Below, one piece after another: positions 3,983 to 63,311 of a stretch of 64,000 nt of DNA. Every line of letters begins with the position of its first letter. Position 1 is the stretch's first letter. A program made the translations under genes and the position numbers. This stretch comes from Haematobia irritans (Eukaryota > Arthropoda > Insecta > Diptera > Muscidae): NCBI RefSeq assembly GCF_050003625.1, contig NC_134400.1:50162066-50226065 (forward strand), written 5' to 3'. The notes beneath the pieces were generated by a model. The model was not told the DNA's origin. It did not search any database and was given only the letters and a program-made list of their open reading frames with translations.

Positions 3983-5522
3983 TAGGGATTCCAGACGTGC
4001 TCTTTTAAAGAGCACATGTGCTCTTTTTTACAACCCAGCAAAAACTGGATAACCACATCTCATTACAATCAACATTACCAGGAGTAAAGCTGCCATTACA
4101 CGTTGCATTACATTGCGGCGAGTTATAATGACTAACTTGTAATGACAAAAATAAATACTTCTGGGTAATTTTCGAATTGTTATTCTCAAATTTTATGCAG
4201 TTGTAGTTAACGAATTAATAAAATAGAATAAATGATGGTACCATTAGAATAAATGATGGTACCATTATTCACATAATCGAGCACTTACATAAAAAATCAA
4301 AAAGAATATGTAATGTAACGGTAATTCTGAAAAATTTTCCGTTAAGAAATTGTTATCACAAATATTTCATAATAATTGTGTTTAATGACATTGTCATATT
4401 ATGTTTTAAATAAATGCTTTCTTATACCTCATTCACATTACACTTCCAAAATGCGCTTAAACTTAAACTTTCAAATGCCATTTGCCTTATAAAAAAGAGA
4501 CTTAAAATCCACTTTTAGTAGATTTGGAACCTTATGTGAATTGGCTATTGGATATATTATAACGTAATTCACGAATCCAACTCCCTTAAACAACCTACAT
4601 TTATTTCTATTTTAAGTGTGAAATTAATTTGCATCTTATTTAGATTATTTATTAGATTTTTTGTTTATACAATATTCGTTTCTATTCAAGTAGTTCTTCT
4701 ATTACAGCATCACTCGCCATATTTTGATCCATTGTAATCGGCGATAGAAATCAATATTTTCGAGATTTGGTGCCTGAGACAATAAGTGGCTATTTTGCAA
4801 GGTTTGGTGTATCTACGAATAAGTCATTACATATTAGGTGATTATATGCTTTAAATGCACTACTTATTTTATGGCCGAAAGTATGACTGGGGAGAAGTAC
4901 TTTCCTTCTAGGACATGCGTATGTAAATGTAATCCGAAGCGATGCCAATTAATAAGTGGTTATTAATTTTTTAATAGGCTTACCTACAAGATTACCGGGT
5001 AATGAGAGTTTTTGCTGGGAAAATGTGCTCTTAAAACAAGACAGGCCAAAAGAGCACGCAAAAGTGCTCTTTTTTGCATCACAACAAATATTAATCAAGC
5101 GCGATTCAATAAATGGTAAAAGTAACTGTATTTTCAGTAAATGTCGCACTAATAGATTTTCCTAGCCGTTATTTTCTAATTAAATAGTGTTATTTTCTAA
5201 TTAAATAGTTACTTTATATATCAGAGTCGTAGAAGATGTTGCTTCTTCACTTTGTACTCTTTTCTAAATGTTAACAAACTTCTTCAACAACGTTTTTCAC
5301 AAAAACACCAAAAAATTACTTAAAAAGTATTGTAAGAAAATTAGCTTGAGTTGAAAGTGGGTTATTTTATGTTTATGGTATGAACCTTTTTGCTATGTTT
5401 AAATGAATTATATTTCAATAAATTGGAAATAAATGTTTTTCTTTTATTTGAAAAAGTGTGCTCTATTCTTTTCGTATGTGCTCTTTTTATAAGCTAAATG
5501 TGCTCTTTTTGCCTCTTCCCTA
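3983..5522. mobile_element. Non-autonomous hAT element with gtgctctttt repeats
   Basis: Flanked by an exact 8-bp target duplication tatggaag (3975-3982 and 5523-5530). Termini begin TAGGGA on both sides, fitting hAT. Both ends and a central block carry repeats of 'gtgctctttt' in direct and inverted forms (about 4000-4030, 5025-5075, 5455-5515), which may be subterminal transposase-binding sites. No transposase is seen. A second inverted-repeat element (4034-5019) lies inside. Confidence 0.85.
4034..5019. mobile_element. 986-bp inverted-repeat element in hAT
   Basis: Perfect 13-bp terminal inverted repeats cccagcaaaaact / agtttttgctggg. It separates two blocks of the host hAT's gtgctctttt repeats. 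Flanks are A-rich, so the target duplication is unclear (possibly AA). No credible ORF. The stretch 4430-4560 resembles part of the repeats at 18106-18645 and 47033-47460. Confidence 0.6.
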
Positions 5523-55660: not shown

Positions 55661-55665
55661 GCCGG
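55661..55665. repeat. BEL target duplication, left (gccgg)
   Basis: gccgg directly before the left LTR; identical gccgg at 62935-62939 after the right LTR. A 5-bp duplication is usual for BEL/Pao. Confidence 0.9.
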
Positions 55666-56142
55666 TGTTTGGGTATAACAGAGTACGGTTGGAGTCAGCG
55701 GGGATGAGCGGGGATTACCTTTACCTGTGTGAGATGAACCGAGTGATCATGGATCTCTCATGAGCCGAAGATAAACCAAAAGCTTTATGACAAATCAATT
55801 GGTTTATCGCTCCCAGAAAAGATGACCAAAGATGACGATAAAACCATGGATAAAAATAAATGAAACAGCAATTAGGGAATGGACTGTATTTAAAGATTGT
55901 GTTTTATTTTCTTTGGTCGACTTCTTACCAGTAGGTGTTCGTAGTTACAGCGATGAAAAGCAAGTGACTTATAAAGGAAATACTATTTTCAAAATGGCTT
56001 AGTGATTTTATGGATAAAACTTAATTTAATTATCTGATTACTCATCTACCAATGCGACACTGTAGACAGAAATTCATTTGGGGATTTTTATACTAATCTA
56101 GGAATTCATGTATTAATTAGGGGTTTCGTTTCAACGTAAACA
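55666..56142 (-). repeat. BEL LTR (3' LTR in element orientation)
   Basis: 477 bp, starts tgtttgggtataac and ends gtaaaca. Differs from the other LTR at about two positions (near 55969 and 56121). Confidence 0.95.
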
Positions 56143-56160
56143 TTCTGCCCACCTTGCAGT
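56143..56160 (-). other. Putative polypurine tract
   Basis: On the minus strand the bases just before the LTR read aaggtgggcagaa, a purine-rich stretch at the expected plus-strand priming place. Confidence 0.6.
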
Positions 56161-56353
56161 ACTACTAAAATAAAATAGGAGAAAATGAATTGTTGATACA
56201 AATTCGTGTTGTACTCTTCTTCGGTTAGTACTGCTTATTTTCTATTAAATGATACTTAAATCTAAGATAATTTTTTGTTGTTAATTCAATTTTAGGTTCA
56301 GAATAAGATTTGATACAAATGATATATAAATGTGTATATTCAATTTTTGTCCA

Positions 56354-57229
56354 TTAGATAGAAAAGTTTCCATATAAAATAATTCCAAAGCTGGTATTCT
56401 GTGCTGTTGGTAGACCTGTACGAACAAAAATTCCATCCCGGACTACTCGTGAAAAAACGTCGACTCCCAATATGATGTCAATTGTGGACGCTTTATAGAA
56501 ATGTTTATCAGCCAGTTTCAGGTTGTTAAAGTTGGTGAGGATGGATTCTGGAAGTGATTTCTTGGGTGTTATGGTACCGATTCGGTTGTTTACTCGCAAA
56601 ATAGTTTCAATTTGAAAATTAGAGTCGACATATGACCAGAGAGTGATTGGACATATTATTTCATTATCTAGCTCTAAAGTAGTCAACCCTAATTTATCCA
56701 CAAATTGTTTGGAGATGCAGCTCATTTTTGAAGCTGTGTCAAACAAGCACCTGGCACTATGTTTGCCGTCCTTTGAACTTATTTTTACCAAAGCTGTAGG
56801 TAGAAGAGTGGCAGCATTTTGTTTGAGAATTGCGGTGAGGGATGTTGTGGTGGGTACTGTGTCAGTGACTGAAGATTGTTTTGTTTTTAAAGAACTGGTG
56901 GAGGATGATGGTTTTTGTTCTTTCGCCGATGATTGCTGCTTTAACATATTGGATTTGTTGGATTCTAGCAAACTGGTATGTATGTGCAGCAATGAGTGAT
57001 GGTGTTTATGGCAATACCCGCAACCTGTCTTGGTAAAACATGACCCATCCGAGTGCGAGTGTGCCAAACAATTGACACAGTATCCAAATTTTTCTACAGC
57101 TTTCATTCGTTCTGTAGAATTCATTCTTCTAAATTTCCAGCAAGATTTTAAGGCATGAACTTTCCGACAAACTCTACAAATAAATGGACCTTTGTTCTTG
57201 ATAAGCTGAGTTTTTGTGGTCGAATGCAT
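56354..57229 (-). CDS. Zinc-knuckle and aspartyl-protease-like ORF downstream of BEL pol
   Basis: 291-residue intact ORF. Residues ~19-80 carry three Cys/His clusters (CRVCRKVHALKSC, CVNCLAHSHSDGSC, CGYCHKHHHSLLH) like the gag zinc knuckles of the core ORF. After a Ser/Thr/Lys-rich linker, residues ~140-285 match the DUF1758 retropepsin region (CLFDTASKMSCIS, then STIDIILGVDVF, ending near SFGIILYG). The active-site triplet is DTA instead of the DTG in the core ORF, so activity is doubtful. The ATG lies four bases after a splice-acceptor-like ttcttctattttacag. It sits between the pol end (57322) and the LTR, the position of env in other elements. No signal peptide or membrane segment, so it is not an envelope protein. 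Function unknown. Confidence 0.7.
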   Translation of the reverse strand: MHSTTKTQLIKNKGPFICRVCRKVHALKSCWKFRRMNSTERMKAVEKFGYCVNCLAHSHSDGSCFTKTGCGYCHKHHHSLLHIHTSLLESNKSNMLKQQSSAKEQKPSSSTSSLKTKQSSVTDTVPTTTSLTAILKQNAATLLPTALVKISSKDGKHSARCLFDTASKMSCISKQFVDKLGLTTLELDNEIICPITLWSYVDSNFQIETILRVNNRIGTITPKKSLPESILTNFNNLKLADKHFYKASTIDIILGVDVFSRVVRDGIFVRTGLPTAQNTSFGIILYGNFSI

Positions 57230-57245
57230 TTTTCTGTAAAATAGA
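57230..57245 (-). promoter_or_regulatory. Candidate splice acceptor before the 3' ORF
   Basis: Minus-strand pyrimidine-rich ttcttctattttacag, four bases before the ATG at 57229. It could allow a spliced subgenomic RNA, as used for env in some LTR elements. Confidence 0.5.
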
Positions 57246-57321
57246 AGAAATTATATTTTGGATTGTGAGAAAAAATAAACGAGAAATTAGGGTAGGTGAA
57301 GTCATCGAAAATTTTAAAGGA

Positions 57322-57660
57322 TTATACACTTTCGTGGGGCAGAACAACGAGTTTTGTTATTGTCCTTGTTATCGTGCCTCGTTCTGTTCTTACGTTGGCC
57401 ACCCGAACTCTTCCGTCGCTTCCCATGTAGATTCGAGAGATTCTTCCCAGTCGCCAACTATTAGGAGGCAAATTTTCTTCCTTTACGACGACTAACATGT
57501 CCTCTTGGAGATTGGAGTCGGGTGTTTTCCACTTATGTCGTTTTTGAAGCTCCTTTAAGTATTCGTTCTTCCAACGGGTGCAAAAGTGCTGGTAAAGTGC
57601 TTTGATTTTTTGCCATCGGGTTTGAATAGATATTGGAGATTGATTGGATTCAGGTTCCAG
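57322..57660 (-). pseudogene. BEL pol C-terminal domain (DUF5641), detached
   Basis: Minus-strand reading gives the conserved end of BEL/Pao integrase polyproteins: TRWQKIKALYQHFCTRW, then PPNSWRLGRISRIYMGSDG and RTITKLVVLPHE, stop at 57322. It is in frame with the short gag piece upstream (57661-57717) but separated from its integrase, which lies inverted at 61400-62235. It shows that the native orientation of the element is minus. Confidence 0.85.
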
Positions 57661-57662
57661 CT

Positions 57663-57787
57663 TTTCGACTGGACTTAATTTGGAATTATGAAGACATAAG
57701 GCGATTACAAGTCCTGACCAACATTTCGGGACATGTTTACCGCTTTATGTCTTCATAATTCCAAATTAAGTCCAGTCGAAAAGCTTT
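57663..57787. repeat. Inverted-repeat junction at gag end of BEL core
   Basis: Left arm ~57663-57702 (agcttttcgactggacttaa...) and right arm ~57748-57787 are inverse copies of the same gag segment (SKLSPVEKL), with a ~45-bp non-matching loop. This marks the left edge of the inverted core. Confidence 0.85.
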
Positions 57788-60700
57788 TTTATTTATCTCA
57801 AAAGACCAAGGGCGAGCCTCACCATATCGTGTCCAAGAGCCCGCTGACAAATGAAGGGTTCACGTCAGCTTGGTCCAACTTGTGTTCTCGGTATGAGAAC
57901 AAACGAATTCTTATTAATGCTCAACTTAAAACTTTGTTTAATCTTTCGGCTATTTATGCTGAGTCTTCCACTGCTTTGAAGAAGTTACAGGGTGACATAA
58001 ACTCCTGTATAGACACATTGAAACTCTACAAAATCGATATTAATAGTTGGAATCCTATTTTTATTTACCTCTGTTCGAATTGTCTCCCCGAGACGACCCT
58101 CACTCTATGGGAGCAAACGTTAAGTGACAAAACGACTATTCCAGAGTGGTCTGAGCTAAATGCGTTTCTAACAAATAGACATAGGACCCTTGAATCGGTT
58201 ACTGCACTGAAGTGTTTAAGCGAAGCGAAGCCGACTAATGTGAAACAGAGAGGTAATGTGAACCCAAAGCATTCTTCTAGTAAAGTTCACGCCTTCCAAA
58301 CCGGGATCAATAAGATTAAATGTCGGCTATGTCCTAAGGAATTTCACATTATTAGAAAGTGTCCCCGATTTATTGCGATGGATTACGATCAAAGGCTAAC
58401 TGAGATAAAGAGCAGCAGTTTATGTTTAAACTGTTTTTCGGGCTCTCACTCAGTTAAATGTTGTAGGAGTAAACACGTCTGCGCCAAATGTAAGGGAAAA
58501 CATAATACTATGCTGCATAGAGAATCGGGGTCTGTGAAGCGAGTCTCGGACGATACCCGTTTAGATAATCCTGTCCCGACCTCAAGGCCGGAAAATGCAT
58601 CCATCTTGTCCTACCAACCATCCACATCCAAGGGTCAGCCTAATAACTCTTCCAGTGAAGTTATACAGACCTGTTTTGCTTCCAGTTCTAGTGGGATTTT
58701 ATTAGGGACAGCGATGGTACATCGTTTACATCAAGGGGAAGTATATAAAGTTCGGGCGTTGTTGGATACAGGCTCCGAAGGTTCTTTCATATCGGAGAAT
58801 CTTGCTAACTTATTGAAACTTCCAGTCCGTCGAACTTCCGCCATTATTTCCGGTTTGAATAGTTCGGTTTCTGCTTCCGTACACAAGGAATGTTCTTTTA
58901 TGTTGGTTTCGGACGTGGTGCCCGATTTCGAACTAACAGTGTCGGCTTTAATAGTACCACACCTCCCCAATAATCTACCGTCCAAAACTATTCATGTTGA
59001 ATCATTCTCGAATTTGCCTCGACTAGATTTGGCCGATCCCAGATTTTATGAGAGTGCCAAAATTGATATTCTCTTAGGCGCTGATGTTCTTCCTTCAATC
59101 CTGTTGCCCAGGAACCTTCATCAGATTTGTGGCACTCTAATGGCCCAAGAAACTGTCTTTGGATGGATTCTTACGGGACCTATTGCTCATCGAAATTCCT
59201 CCTGTTTCAATACTTGTGTTTCATACTTTTGTGATATCTCTTTGGATCAGAAGATTTCCCGGTTCTGGGAAGTGGAGAACATACCACGAAAACGATTTCC
59301 CTCACGGGATGATACATACTGCGAGGATTTGTATAGGAAAACGACAAGACGGAATCCCGAGGGCAGATATGTTGTTGTTCTCCCATTCAAAGAATCCAAT
59401 CCAGACAAATCATGCCTCGGAGTTTCACGAAAGAGTGCAATGGCGCAGTTTCTCCGTAATGAAACGCGTCTTCTTAAGGATGCTTATTTGAAATCCGAAT
59501 ATGATAAGGCTCTTGATGAATATCGTATATTGGGACATATGTTCCCAGTGACTTCTCCGAATGCATTAACGGCTGAGCCCAACTATTACTTACCCCATCA
59601 TGCAGTGGTCAAGCCTGAAAGGGCAACGACTAAGATTCGAGTCGTCTTCAATGCATCATGTCCAACGTCAACTGGGGTAAGCCTAAATGACGTTCTTCAC
59701 ACGGGTCCAGTACTTCAGAACGACCTGACCATTTTAATCTTACGATGGCGTTTCTATCGATTTGTTTTGAATGGTGACATACAGCAAATGTACCGACAAA
59801 TCCTGGTAGATTCGTCCGATACTCCCTTTCAACGAATTTTATTTCGTAAATCACAGGATGATCCAATCCAGGACTTTGAATTGAAGACTGTGACGTTTGG
59901 CTTGAATTGTGCTCCTTATTTAGCCATTCGTACCATGATTCAGTTGGCGAATGATGTTCAGGATAAGTATCCCTTAGCTAGTCATATTTTAAAATCGTGC
60001 ATGTATGTGGATGATGCGTTAATTGGCGCTCATTCCATTCCAATAGCCATTGCTACTAGGGATCAACTCATTCAGGCTTTGAATTCTGCAGGATTTTCAA
60101 TACGCAAATGGATTTCGAATCGAAAAACCATTCTTCACGGGCTTTCTGAAGATAGCCTTTTGTACAGCGATTTTTTGGAATTCGAAGATCGCAGTTCAGC
60201 AAAGACCTTAGGAATCCGTTGGAACGCTCTATCTGACGAATTCTACTTCACAGCTATACCACTTCCGGAACATCTGCCTTACACGAAACGAGAAGTATTA
60301 TCTCAAATATCCAAACTATTTGATCCTGCAGTATGGTTATCTCCTATAGTTATCACGGCAAAAATAATAATGCAGAAAATCTGGATGGAAAGAACAGACT
60401 GGGATTCCTTAATTTCCACAGAGACCCAAACAATGTGGAAAAATTTTCAGGGTGACTACCCACTTATAGAAAAGATTAGAATTCCGAGATGGGTGAGCTT
60501 TTCACCCGAGGCAGACATCGAATTCCACGGTTTTTCGGATGCCTCAGAGAAGGCATATTCTGCTGCAATTTACATAAGCATGACTTATCCCAATGCAATA
60601 TCCACACGTTTAATATCATCCAAGACCAAGGTTGCTCCATTAAAGACTTTGTCAATTCCTCGATTGGAGCTATGCGGAGCCTCACTTTTGGCGGAAATGA

Positions 60701-62250
60701 TCGATAAACTAATTCCACACTTTGATATCCAAAAATATACAATATACTGTTGGACAGACTCTACGATTGTACTGTCATGGTTGGCAAAACCACCTTGTGT
60801 TTGGACAACTTTCGTGGCAAATCGAGTCTCGAAAATAACGCACGTAGTGGATCCATCACGATGGTTTCATGTTAACTCGGAAGAAAATCCAGCTGATATA
60901 GCCAGTCGAGGCACTAGCCCCCAAGAGCTTTCGAGATGTAAGCTTTGGTGGGAAGGGCCAACTTGGCTTTCTGAATCTTCAAGAACATGGCCAAAAATCC
61001 CGAAGGAAGTTGTCGGCGATACAGATTGTGAAAGGAAATCTGTGCAAGTTCATTTTTCATATTTTAAGGATTTTCTCGACATACTACATCGTTTTTCTTC
61101 ATTTCCAAGAGCTATGAGAGTAATTTCTTACGTCTACAGATTCTATCTGGGTACCCATCCAAAATATCGATCAAATTATAAAAGAGATTCAGCATCCATT
61201 ACTGCTGCCGAAATTCTTTTTGAATTTCGTAAGAAACTTATTATCGTGACCCAAAAAGCCTATTATGCAAACGAATACCTGACTCTTTCTAGCAAAAAAT
61301 CCATATCGTCTTCTAGTCCCATACTATGTTTGAATCCTTTCATGGATTCAGAAGGCATAATGCGCATTTGTGGGAGACTGGAATCATCAACAACCCTGTC
61401 GTACCAAGAACGTCATCCGATTATTCTGCCGTACAATTGTCAGTATTCTAGGTTGCTTGTACATTTCACCCATCAAATTAGTTTACATGGTGGTAATCAA
61501 CTAGTACTTAGACTTGTCCGTACGCAATACTGGATTCCAAAAGTGCAGAACCTAATCAAGGCTATTATCCATAATTGCAAGCCATGTATTTTATATAAGA
61601 AAAGATGTCAGAAACAGTTAATGGCCGCTTTACCTCCTGAGAGATGTGAAATTTCACGTCCATTTGCTCATACCGGAATCGATTTTGCTGGTCCCTTTGA
61701 GCTGAAAAGCTTTGCGGGAAGATGCTGCCGTATTTCAAAGGGCTATGTGTGTGTGTTCATTTGTTTTTCAACTCGGGCGATACACCTCGAAGCTACAACT
61801 GATTTGTCATCGTCCGCTTTTCTTGCTGCATTTAGCCGATTTGTATCACGGCGAGGATGTCCACTTCATATACATTCCGACAACGGAACCACTTTGATTG
61901 GTGCTTCCAAGGTTTTGGCTAAAGAGTTTATCCAAACATCACGACAAGCAGTGACCTCAAATTACGCTCACCAGAATGTTACTTGCCACTTCATAGCCCC
62001 CGGTGCCCCACTTATGGGTGGTCTATGGGAGGCCGGTGTGAAAAGTTTCAAGTTACATTTCAGAAAGGTGGCGGGTGTCCATAAATATACATTCGAGGAA
62101 TTCCAAACTTTATTATCCAAGATAGAAGCATGTTTAAACTCTAGACCAATATCTCCAAGTTCCCAAGAACCTTCCGATCTTGCAGCTCTAACTCCAGGTC
62201 ACTTCTTAATTGGATGTCCTATTTTGGTTCCGCTGTCGGAATGTATATGA
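57733..62250 (+). CDS. BEL/Pao gag-pol polyprotein, truncated at both ends, inverted
   Basis: Open for 1505 codons. Order: gag capsid-like DUF1759 part (1-~160, N-terminus missing), zinc knuckles (~197-262: CRLCPKEFHIIRKC, CLNCFSGSHSVKCC, CAKCKGKHNTMLH), protease (LLDTGSEGSF, Asp ~345), reverse transcriptase (YVDD ~758-761), RNase H (GFSDAS, Asp ~936), integrase zinc region (~1240-1300) and integrase core (Asp ~1317 in GIDFAGPF, Asp ~1383 in HSDNGT, Glu ~1433 in GGLWEAG). The last codons (ECI and stop) come from the inverted integrase copy; the true C-terminal domain is at 57660-57322 on the other strand. The Met at 57733 is an internal gag codon, not a natural start. Antisense to its own LTR promoter, so it cannot be expressed normally although the frame is intact. 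Confidence 0.9.
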   Translation: MFTALCLHNSKLSPVEKLFYLSQKTKGEPHHIVSKSPLTNEGFTSAWSNLCSRYENKRILINAQLKTLFNLSAIYAESSTALKKLQGDINSCIDTLKLYKIDINSWNPIFIYLCSNCLPETTLTLWEQTLSDKTTIPEWSELNAFLTNRHRTLESVTALKCLSEAKPTNVKQRGNVNPKHSSSKVHAFQTGINKIKCRLCPKEFHIIRKCPRFIAMDYDQRLTEIKSSSLCLNCFSGSHSVKCCRSKHVCAKCKGKHNTMLHRESGSVKRVSDDTRLDNPVPTSRPENASILSYQPSTSKGQPNNSSSEVIQTCFASSSSGILLGTAMVHRLHQGEVYKVRALLDTGSEGSFISENLANLLKLPVRRTSAIISGLNSSVSASVHKECSFMLVSDVVPDFELTVSALIVPHLPNNLPSKTIHVESFSNLPRLDLADPRFYESAKIDILLGADVLPSILLPRNLHQICGTLMAQETVFGWILTGPIAHRNSSCFNTCVSYFCDISLDQKISRFWEVENIPRKRFPSRDDTYCEDLYRKTTRRNPEGRYVVVLPFKESNPDKSCLGVSRKSAMAQFLRNETRLLKDAYLKSEYDKALDEYRILGHMFPVTSPNALTAEPNYYLPHHAVVKPERATTKIRVVFNASCPTSTGVSLNDVLHTGPVLQNDLTILILRWRFYRFVLNGDIQQMYRQILVDSSDTPFQRILFRKSQDDPIQDFELKTVTFGLNCAPYLAIRTMIQLANDVQDKYPLASHILKSCMYVDDALIGAHSIPIAIATRDQLIQALNSAGFSIRKWISNRKTILHGLSEDSLLYSDFLEFEDRSSAKTLGIRWNALSDEFYFTAIPLPEHLPYTKREVLSQISKLFDPAVWLSPIVITAKIIMQKIWMERTDWDSLISTETQTMWKNFQGDYPLIEKIRIPRWVSFSPEADIEFHGFSDASEKAYSAAIYISMTYPNAISTRLISSKTKVAPLKTLSIPRLELCGASLLAEMIDKLIPHFDIQKYTIYCWTDSTIVLSWLAKPPCVWTTFVANRVSKITHVVDPSRWFHVNSEENPADIASRGTSPQELSRCKLWWEGPTWLSESSRTWPKIPKEVVGDTDCERKSVQVHFSYFKDFLDILHRFSSFPRAMRVISYVYRFYLGTHPKYRSNYKRDSASITAAEILFEFRKKLIIVTQKAYYANEYLTLSSKKSISSSSPILCLNPFMDSEGIMRICGRLESSTTLSYQERHPIILPYNCQYSRLLVHFTHQISLHGGNQLVLRLVRTQYWIPKVQNLIKAIIHNCKPCILYKKRCQKQLMAALPPERCEISRPFAHTGIDFAGPFELKSFAGRCCRISKGYVCVFICFSTRAIHLEATTDLSSSAFLAAFSRFVSRRGCPLHIHSDNGTTLIGASKVLAKEFIQTSRQAVTSNYAHQNVTCHFIAPGAPLMGGLWEAGVKSFKLHFRKVAGVHKYTFEEFQTLLSKIEACLNSRPISPSSQEPSDLAALTPGHFLIGCPILVPLSECI

Positions 62251-62450
62251 AGTGGACATCCTCGCCGTGATACAAATCGGCTAAATGCAGCAAGAAAAGC
62301 GGACGATGACAAATCAGTTGTAGCTTCGAGGTGTATCGCCCGAGTTGAAAAACAAATGAACACACACACATAGCCCTTTGAAATACGGCAGCATCTTCCC
62401 GCAAAGCTTTTCAGGTCAAAGGGACCAGCAAAATCGAATCCGGTTCGAAG
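61673..62450. repeat. Integrase inverted repeat at the right BEL junction
   Basis: 61673-61891 (integrase core) recurs inverted at 62228-62450 with only a few substitutions. The inverted copy joins the pol end at the shared string ggttccg-tgtc and the PBS region at the shared string accgga. Confidence 0.9.
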
Positions 62451-62457
62451 GACCAAA
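62440..62457 (-). other. Putative primer binding site of BEL element
   Basis: Minus strand: two bases after the LTR end, tggtccttcgaaccgg, starting with TGG as expected for tRNA priming. It runs directly into integrase sequence instead of leader and gag. Confidence 0.65.
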
Positions 62458-62934
62458 TGTTTGGGTATAACAGAGTACGGTTGGAGTCAGCGGGGATGAG
62501 CGGGGATTACCTTTACCTGTGTGAGATGAACCGAGTGATCATGGATCTCTCATGAGCCGAAGATAAACCAAAAGCTTTATGACAAATCAATTGGTTTATC
62601 GCTCCCAGAAAAGATGACCAAAGATGACGATAAAACCATGGATAAAAATAAATGAAACAGCAATTAGGGAATGGACTGTATTTAAAGATTGTGTTTTATT
62701 TTCTTTGGTCGACTTCTTACCAGTAGGTGTTCGTAGTTACAGCGATGAAAAGCAAGTGGCTTATAAAGGAAATACTATTTTCAAAATGGCTTAGTGATTT
62801 TATGGATAAAACTTAATTTAATTATCTGATTACTCATCTACCAATGCGACACTGTAGACAGAAATTCATTTGGGGATTTTTATACTAATCTAGGAATTCA
62901 TGTATTAATTAGGGTTTTCGTTTCAACGTAAACA
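62458..62934 (-). repeat. BEL LTR (5' LTR in element orientation)
   Basis: 477 bp, tgtttgggtat...cgtaaaca, nearly identical to 55666-56142. Followed by the duplicated gccgg (62935-62939). Confidence 0.95.
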
Positions 62935-63148
62935 GCCGGTTTAATTTTGTAATTTTGTAGAAGTACAAAAAAATTGTCTCCAAATTGTTTCAGATATAAA
63001 TATTTGTATATGGGAATATAAACCTTGATAATAACTCCCAACAAATTTGAAGGAGTTGCGATTGTAACACAAATTTTGGTCTACATAATAGTGAAGGGTA
63101 TAATATAGTCGGCCCCGCCCGACTTTAGACTTTACTAACTTGTTTAAT

Positions 63149-63311
63149 TGTAGTTTTGTTTAGATAAAATAAACTGTGAAATGAAATAATTTAATTAAAA
63201 ATTTTCAATTACTTTGGAAATTGCATTCTGCTATTTGAATATGGTACCCAGTAGTACTAGTTGCTTTGTCCGACATATATAGTTGTGGATTCCAGCGCAG
63301 GTTCTAATGGC
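63149..63311. other. No gene or recognised repeat
   Basis: Short AT-rich flank between the family-B head and the last hAT element. Confidence 0.4.

Follow-up and report, generated by a model that had tools for sequence, protein, structure and literature searches.

The 64,000-nucleotide stretch of DNA analysed here (the window; C4:50162066-50226065 of the 1.17-Gb assembly that was searched) holds a BEL/Pao element of Haematobia irritans that spans 7.27 kb (55666..62934). Read on the minus strand, it presents in order the 5' LTR (62934-62458), the PBS (62455-62438), a rearranged part, the pol end with DUF5641, a 291-aa ORF, the polypurine tract (PPT) and the 3' LTR (55666..56142). The two LTRs are 477 bp long and agree at 475 of 477 positions, and the target-site duplication (TSD) GCCGG is exact on the left (55661..55665) and on the right (62935..62939), as the first-pass annotation of this DNA had reported (LTRs ~99.6% identical and an exact target duplication). 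Both the LTRs and the whole element fall within the sizes given for BEL/Pao (0.2-1.2 kb and 4.2-10 kb, respectively). The 18-nt PBS is by sequence and ARAGORN the exact complement (18/18) of the 3' end of a tRNA-Tyr isodecoder plus CCA, and the PPT, expected at ~10 nt, reads GGTGGGCAGAA in minus-strand letters (56143..56153), adjoins the LTR and is the identical string in all five relatives described below. Pfam searches of the core frame, split in three, recovered DUF1759, aspartyl protease, RVT_1, Peptidase_A17, integrase zinc-binding (H2C2) and rve, the last below its curated cut-off, and the Pol domains follow the Pao-type order PR-RT-RH-IN when read along the inverted core; no separate Pfam match to RNase H was found in these three pieces. 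Rfam and ARAGORN, run over the window, returned no matches. LTR size, Pol order, an 18-nt PBS and a PPT are the features held in common with the Belpaoviridae (PMC8742986), in whose profile tRNA-Arg or tRNA-Gly is named; the present element differs in a PBS that fits tRNA-Tyr instead and in its inverted core. It is a dead copy, and no function is expected of it.

Between the PBS and the DUF5641 end lies a block of ~4.5 kb that reads from gag to integrase on the plus strand. This inverted core (57700..62235) contains partial gag, protease, RT, RNase H and integrase, is 98.9-99.0% identical over 4536 columns to the relatives L041 and L042, and carries a 1505-codon open frame (57733..62250, plus strand). 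The pol C-terminal end with DUF5641 (57325..57661, minus strand; domain 57340-57621, PF18701, E=5.1e-33) keeps its original orientation and is colinear with the relatives. Inverted copies of element sequence are found at both ends of the core. On the integrase side, a 220-nt copy (62225..62444, minus strand), whose ends overlap the junction microhomologies, is placed between the core and the PBS and matches the core stretch 61672..61891 (plus strand) at 217/220 positions (blastn E 1.8e-108, far above chance). On the gag side, a 45-nt copy (57659..57703, minus strand) is placed between the core and DUF5641, to which it is joined through a shared GCT, and matches 57741..57785 (plus strand) at 44/45 positions across a loop of 37 nt (57704..57740, plus strand); the whole 127-base gag palindrome is likewise far above chance (blastn E 1.0e-35). 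The first-pass annotation had recognized the opposite strands of the PBS, PPT and DUF5641 on the one hand and the 1505-codon frame on the other, the inverted duplicates at both junctions, and the short shared strings accgga and ggttccg-tgtc, all of which are present. Its statement that the whole gag-pol core is inverted was too strong, since the frame terminates within the integrase copy and DUF5641 is not inverted; it stands for 57700-62235. L041 and L042 are the two relatives in which the gag stretch at the break is retained, and against them ~2.9 kb are missing between the PBS and 57700, made up of a ~2.5-kb leader and the beginning of gag, at most 142 codons when counted from the first in-frame ATG as far as that at 57733.

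The 291-aa ORF in the env position (56354..57229, minus strand) is, according to homology search and alignment, a paralogue of the Gag zinc-knuckle and protease-like region, with 79/292 positions identical to the element's own Gag zinc-knuckle and protease stretch. At E<=1e-3 the search gave 43 homologues, all but one of which reach 1e-54 or better, and the 10 named ones belong to Haematobia, Stomoxys and Musca. The active-site motif varies among 22 aligned sequences (DTAS, DSAS, DSAA, DSGS, DSGA and DTGS, with DPGS in the most distant). The ORF is full length in four of the five relatives; in the fifth (L043, 6337-7398) ~930 nt over it are absent, with a 5-nt overlap at the join.

A search of the genome for other copies of the junctions and for intact parents, suggested in the first pass, recovered neither rearrangement junction elsewhere among the scored matches and revealed five colinear relatives at ~99% identity. 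The PBS-junction query gave 40 matches (40 of 42 candidates scored), and only the window's own locus covers it entirely; its integrase part occurs at 97-98% in five other places, and all other matches outside the window are either at 70-81% or correspond to the LTR-PBS end in one of these relatives. The gag-junction query gave 27 matches (24 of 24 candidates scored), with a full match at the window's own locus only. In all five relatives the integrase runs directly into DUF5641, through the exact string TTCCGCTGGAACC in four of them and a slightly different one in L045. Four relatives have two full LTRs (spans of 8.75-9.94 kb), with 0, 1, 0 and 0 substitutions between the LTRs. The fifth, L044, has a shortened 5' LTR, only the first 60 bp of which are present (4010-4069), joined directly to the equivalent of 58537 in the gag-pol frame, and its TSD (GAGGG) is kept despite the cut. 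In L045, the gag upstream of the equivalent of 58324 (before 4139) has no blastn match to the window (E<=1e-3), which suggests that this region was replaced or recombined. Elsewhere in the genome, three related integrase copies (L016-L018; C4:63958205, 63963616 and 63969037) are spaced ~5.4 kb apart in one orientation, like a tandem array. At C1:98803412-98808564 (L030/L031) another BEL-type gag, ~70% identical to that of L041, is found in a 2.04-kb inverted duplication (99.9% identical); this duplication at C1:98.80 Mb surrounds a LINE-like fragment and a TA run, and its structure differs from that of the window's element.

Inverted repeats such as those at both junctions are typical trouble spots for assembly, and the inversion could be artificial, the product of an assembly or haplotype misjoin at a locus that is colinear in the fly. 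We regard this as improbable. The pol region has 25 substitutions that are absent from all five relatives, indicating that the core is a distinct copy rather than a collapsed version of one of those loci, and the junction letters can be interpreted to the single base. The right flank (62940-63160) is a high-copy repeat; of 4,454 candidates 40 were scored, 39 of them other places at 86-96% identity, and only its own locus matched at full length. The integrase copy, moreover, has a private base in common with the core. The integrase stretch shows six variable columns among copy, core and relatives: at column 12 the copy has the same T as the core, which none of the five relatives carries; column 30 differs in the copy alone, columns 23 and 87 differ in L045 alone, and columns 7 and 212 are bases of the junctions. 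The presence of the core-private T in the copy implies that its template belonged to the element's own lineage.

After the duplication the integrase pair diverged by 1 substitution in ~410 sites (junction sites excluded), and the LTRs by 2 in 954 sites, one per LTR, as polarised against 16 other LTRs chosen from 43 LTR matches. The two rates agree, but they rest on three substitutions, too few to separate models. The element copy is young, though not the youngest among the copies of the family. Of the private pol substitutions, 9 are synonymous and the other 16 are not (expectation in the absence of selection, 28% synonymous), a count that is uninformative on timing; a 3-nt insertion (61223-61225) is also absent from all five relatives.

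Three of the four junctions can be read closely. The core 3' end, GGTTCCGCTG, is followed by TCGGAATG of the integrase copy, where the source of that copy has GGTTCCGTTGTCGG on the corresponding strand; the core's C is kept at the mismatch, which suggests that synthesis proceeded from the core into the copy. A scan of the whole core (4.5 kb) with the complement of its last 10-mer gave one 9/10 match, the site used, followed by 7/10 at 9 sites, when ~0.13 matches of at least 9/10 would be expected from simple arithmetic. Placed on the relatives, the end of the core and the beginning of the DUF5641 part have four bases in common in four of them and three in L045, so a single parental point was cut to give both sides of the rearrangement. 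This shared integrase/DUF5641 point would have no explanation in a plain chain of template switches with no break, which was set aside for that reason. The point is located inside GGTTCC-GCT-GGAACC, a 6-bp hairpin (-6.7 kcal/mol), and comparable hairpins number 9 in the 8,644 bases of L041; the hairpin, noticed after the fact, carries little weight, whereas the shared break point carries much. The gag fold-back is less clear: the pairing at its loop is weak (4/8 positions by eye) and one base fits neither direction without a substitution.

These junctions also bear on two other explanations. The first pass had named two merged elements as what would contradict its reading, and two orientations within one LTR pair could indeed come from elements merged or nested in opposite orientation. 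Internal LTRs are absent and the TSD is single, the end of the core and the beginning of DUF5641 go back to the same parental point, and the integrase copy is of the core's lineage; the idea is contradicted on each of these counts and was rejected as exceedingly improbable. Autointegration and staggered-break inversion both invert internal segments. The former joins LTR ends to internal sites, and no LTR end joined to an internal site is seen in the element; the latter separates the copies of each duplication, one to either end of the inverted segment, and here each duplicate pair sits at one junction. With this layout, either process has hardly any probability left, and both were rejected.

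A closer inspection of the PBS/integrase junction showed where the LTR side stops. The letters are TTCGAACCGGATTCGATTTTG in the window, TTCGAGCCGGATTATCAG after the LTR in L045 and ACCGGAATCGATTTTG in the core integrase. Nucleotide 18 of the PBS is T in the window and A in the integrase, and the T that follows is common to both; the switch therefore took place after PBS nucleotide 18 or 19 (18|19 or 19|20). The base that marks the isodecoder, A12 (U65), also agrees with the integrase, so that only T18 is diagnostic. Plus-strand strong-stop DNA copies the tRNA as far as the modified base m1A58 and stops before it, and a junction at nucleotide 18/19 is thus the natural end of that reverse transcription intermediate; a random break within the lost 2.9 kb would hit this position in ~2 of 2,900 cases by simple arithmetic. 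The junction shares the short string ACCGGA, and one ACCGGA in 4.5 kb is about the chance expectation.

The PBS complement ATCCGGTTCGAAGGACCA was searched genome-wide as the pattern TCAAATCCGGNTCGAAGGA, which gave 61 hits, 53 of C-type and 8 of T-type; the window's 18 nt match the tRNA-Tyr genes with U65 (T-type). ARAGORN was applied to all 8 T-type places and to 2 of the 53 C-type ones. It called intron-bearing tRNA-Tyr(GTA) genes at four of the T-type places and none at the other four, and of the two C-type places one had no gene and the other was called tRNA-Asn with an intron, although by its sequence it looks like the same Tyr family. The PBS of L045 fits a C-type tRNA-Tyr, and L076, L077 and L078 (5' ends of the L041-L043 copies) read TGGTCCCAATCGAGCCGGATT at the PBS position; such differences within one family suggest primer changes between copies. 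The region C3:118.5-122.4 Mb holds 47 of the 61 tRNA-Tyr-like 3' ends, and since one hit from this cluster (L082) has no ARAGORN gene, a tRNA-derived repeat is possible there.

From the sequence we read the structure, the junction letters, the colinear relatives, the tRNA match and the signs of a single integration. The TSD and the near-identical LTRs point to one integration, although one insertion that was rearranged only later would show a single TSD and matching outer LTRs as well. The element is probably a single recent BEL/Pao cDNA insertion that was rearranged during reverse transcription. In the most economical account, and the one we prefer, a single break and two snap-backs would be combined with a second strand transfer to the wrong site before ordinary integration, in the order given here. 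The molecule that broke would be the genomic RNA or its cDNA, in the loop of the small hairpin at the integrase/DUF5641 boundary. The new 3' end of the upstream part would snap back, GGTTCCGCTG pairing with CAACGGAACC around a loop of ~335 nt, and the fold-back would be extended, presumably by the element's own reverse transcriptase, across ~200 nt of integrase. Plus-strand strong-stop DNA (the LTR and 18 nt from tRNA-Tyr) would transfer to the lone ACCGGA in that integrase stretch and not to the PBS complement, and synthesis would proceed through the fold-back and then along the core, leaving the core antisense to the LTRs. A second turn-back in gag (37-nt loop, 45-nt copy) would be joined to the DUF5641 side through GCT, the leader and the start of gag would never be copied, and the cDNA would integrate normally with a 5-bp TSD. 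With no additional steps, such a route would account for the missing leader and beginning of gag, for a junction that falls where the PBS ends, for the common break point, for the core base retained at the integrase fold-back and for the single TSD. Its more specific form, in which broken retrotransposon RNA was self-primed by folding its new 3' end on the integrase and strong-stop DNA landed on the self-primed product, is proposed tentatively, as a possible rather than a probable course.

The shared break point would be equally natural for a double-strand break in integrated DNA. Breaks near the PBS, in gag and at integrase/DUF5641 could have been followed by fold-back synthesis at the ends (polymerase-theta-like repair) and by backward rejoining of the middle, with 2.9 kb lost. 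Shared break points, snap-back templated copies and short microhomologies are typical of break repair, and templated copies and microhomologies of this kind are present here. For this post-integration course, however, the DNA would have to be broken or trimmed precisely where the PBS ends, and the number of breaks would exceed that of the cDNA route. The templated copy of ~200 nt is long for polymerase-theta-like repair, and the integrase pair shows roughly the divergence of the LTRs and is not clearly younger, although the counts are tiny; we consider this course unlikely. Rearrangement during reverse transcription with one integration, as the first-pass annotation had proposed, is favoured over a later inversion by the PBS-end junction, the own-lineage copy and junctions that are unique among the scored places, though it is unproven, and the fold-backs at both core ends depart from plain template switching. 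The shared integrase/DUF5641 break point, the 2.9-kb loss and the snap-back at both core ends had been overlooked. The young age, the colinear relatives and the tRNA isodecoder tag make the junctions legible. If the self-priming route recurs, internally inverted proviruses would be a signature of cut genomic RNA (e.g. by small-RNA defence), and their junctions would record the RNA cut site and the tRNA that primed the cDNA. Two testable claims are implied, that plus-strand strong-stop DNA is able to prime at sites other than the PBS and that self-primed fold-backs can be bridged into integrable cDNA.

LINE-1 elements have no LTRs. According to the passages available, inversion by LINE-1 twin priming likewise arises during reverse transcription, which is target-primed there, unlike in the present LTR element (PMC2837659). 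Abnormal template switching has been proposed as the source of complex LTR elements in Triticeae (Sabot and Schulman 2007, PMC1950507), by the same argument that a flanking TSD and matching outer LTRs denote one cDNA; those complexes carry a third, internal LTR, none of which was found between the two LTRs here, and no inversion is described for them. In the model for asymmetric-LTR HIV-1, as far as the passages available describe it, a switch of strong-stop DNA to another template is invoked, as here, with transfer to a PBS and not, as in the present element, to integrase (PMC9278108). The available part of PMC3118150 contains nothing on inversion or the PBS, and a limited search of the literature on rearranged retroelements and proviruses, mainly of titles and abstract openings, found no description of the present architecture. 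Internal inversions are, in the passages available, a recognised defect class in HIV-1 proviruses (PMC9278108, PMC11014653), one survey counting inversions in 1.3% (n=1) and inversions together with deletions in another 1.3% (n=1) (PMC9278108). The surveys count such proviruses, and their available passages give neither a formation route nor the junction structure. As in those proviruses, an internal segment is inverted here between like-oriented LTRs of one insertion; the present case differs in being a germ-line BEL/Pao element of a fly, in which one junction falls where the PBS ends and either end of the core has a fold-back copy. The internally inverted provirus is already known, and the well-marked combination found here is a variant of it.
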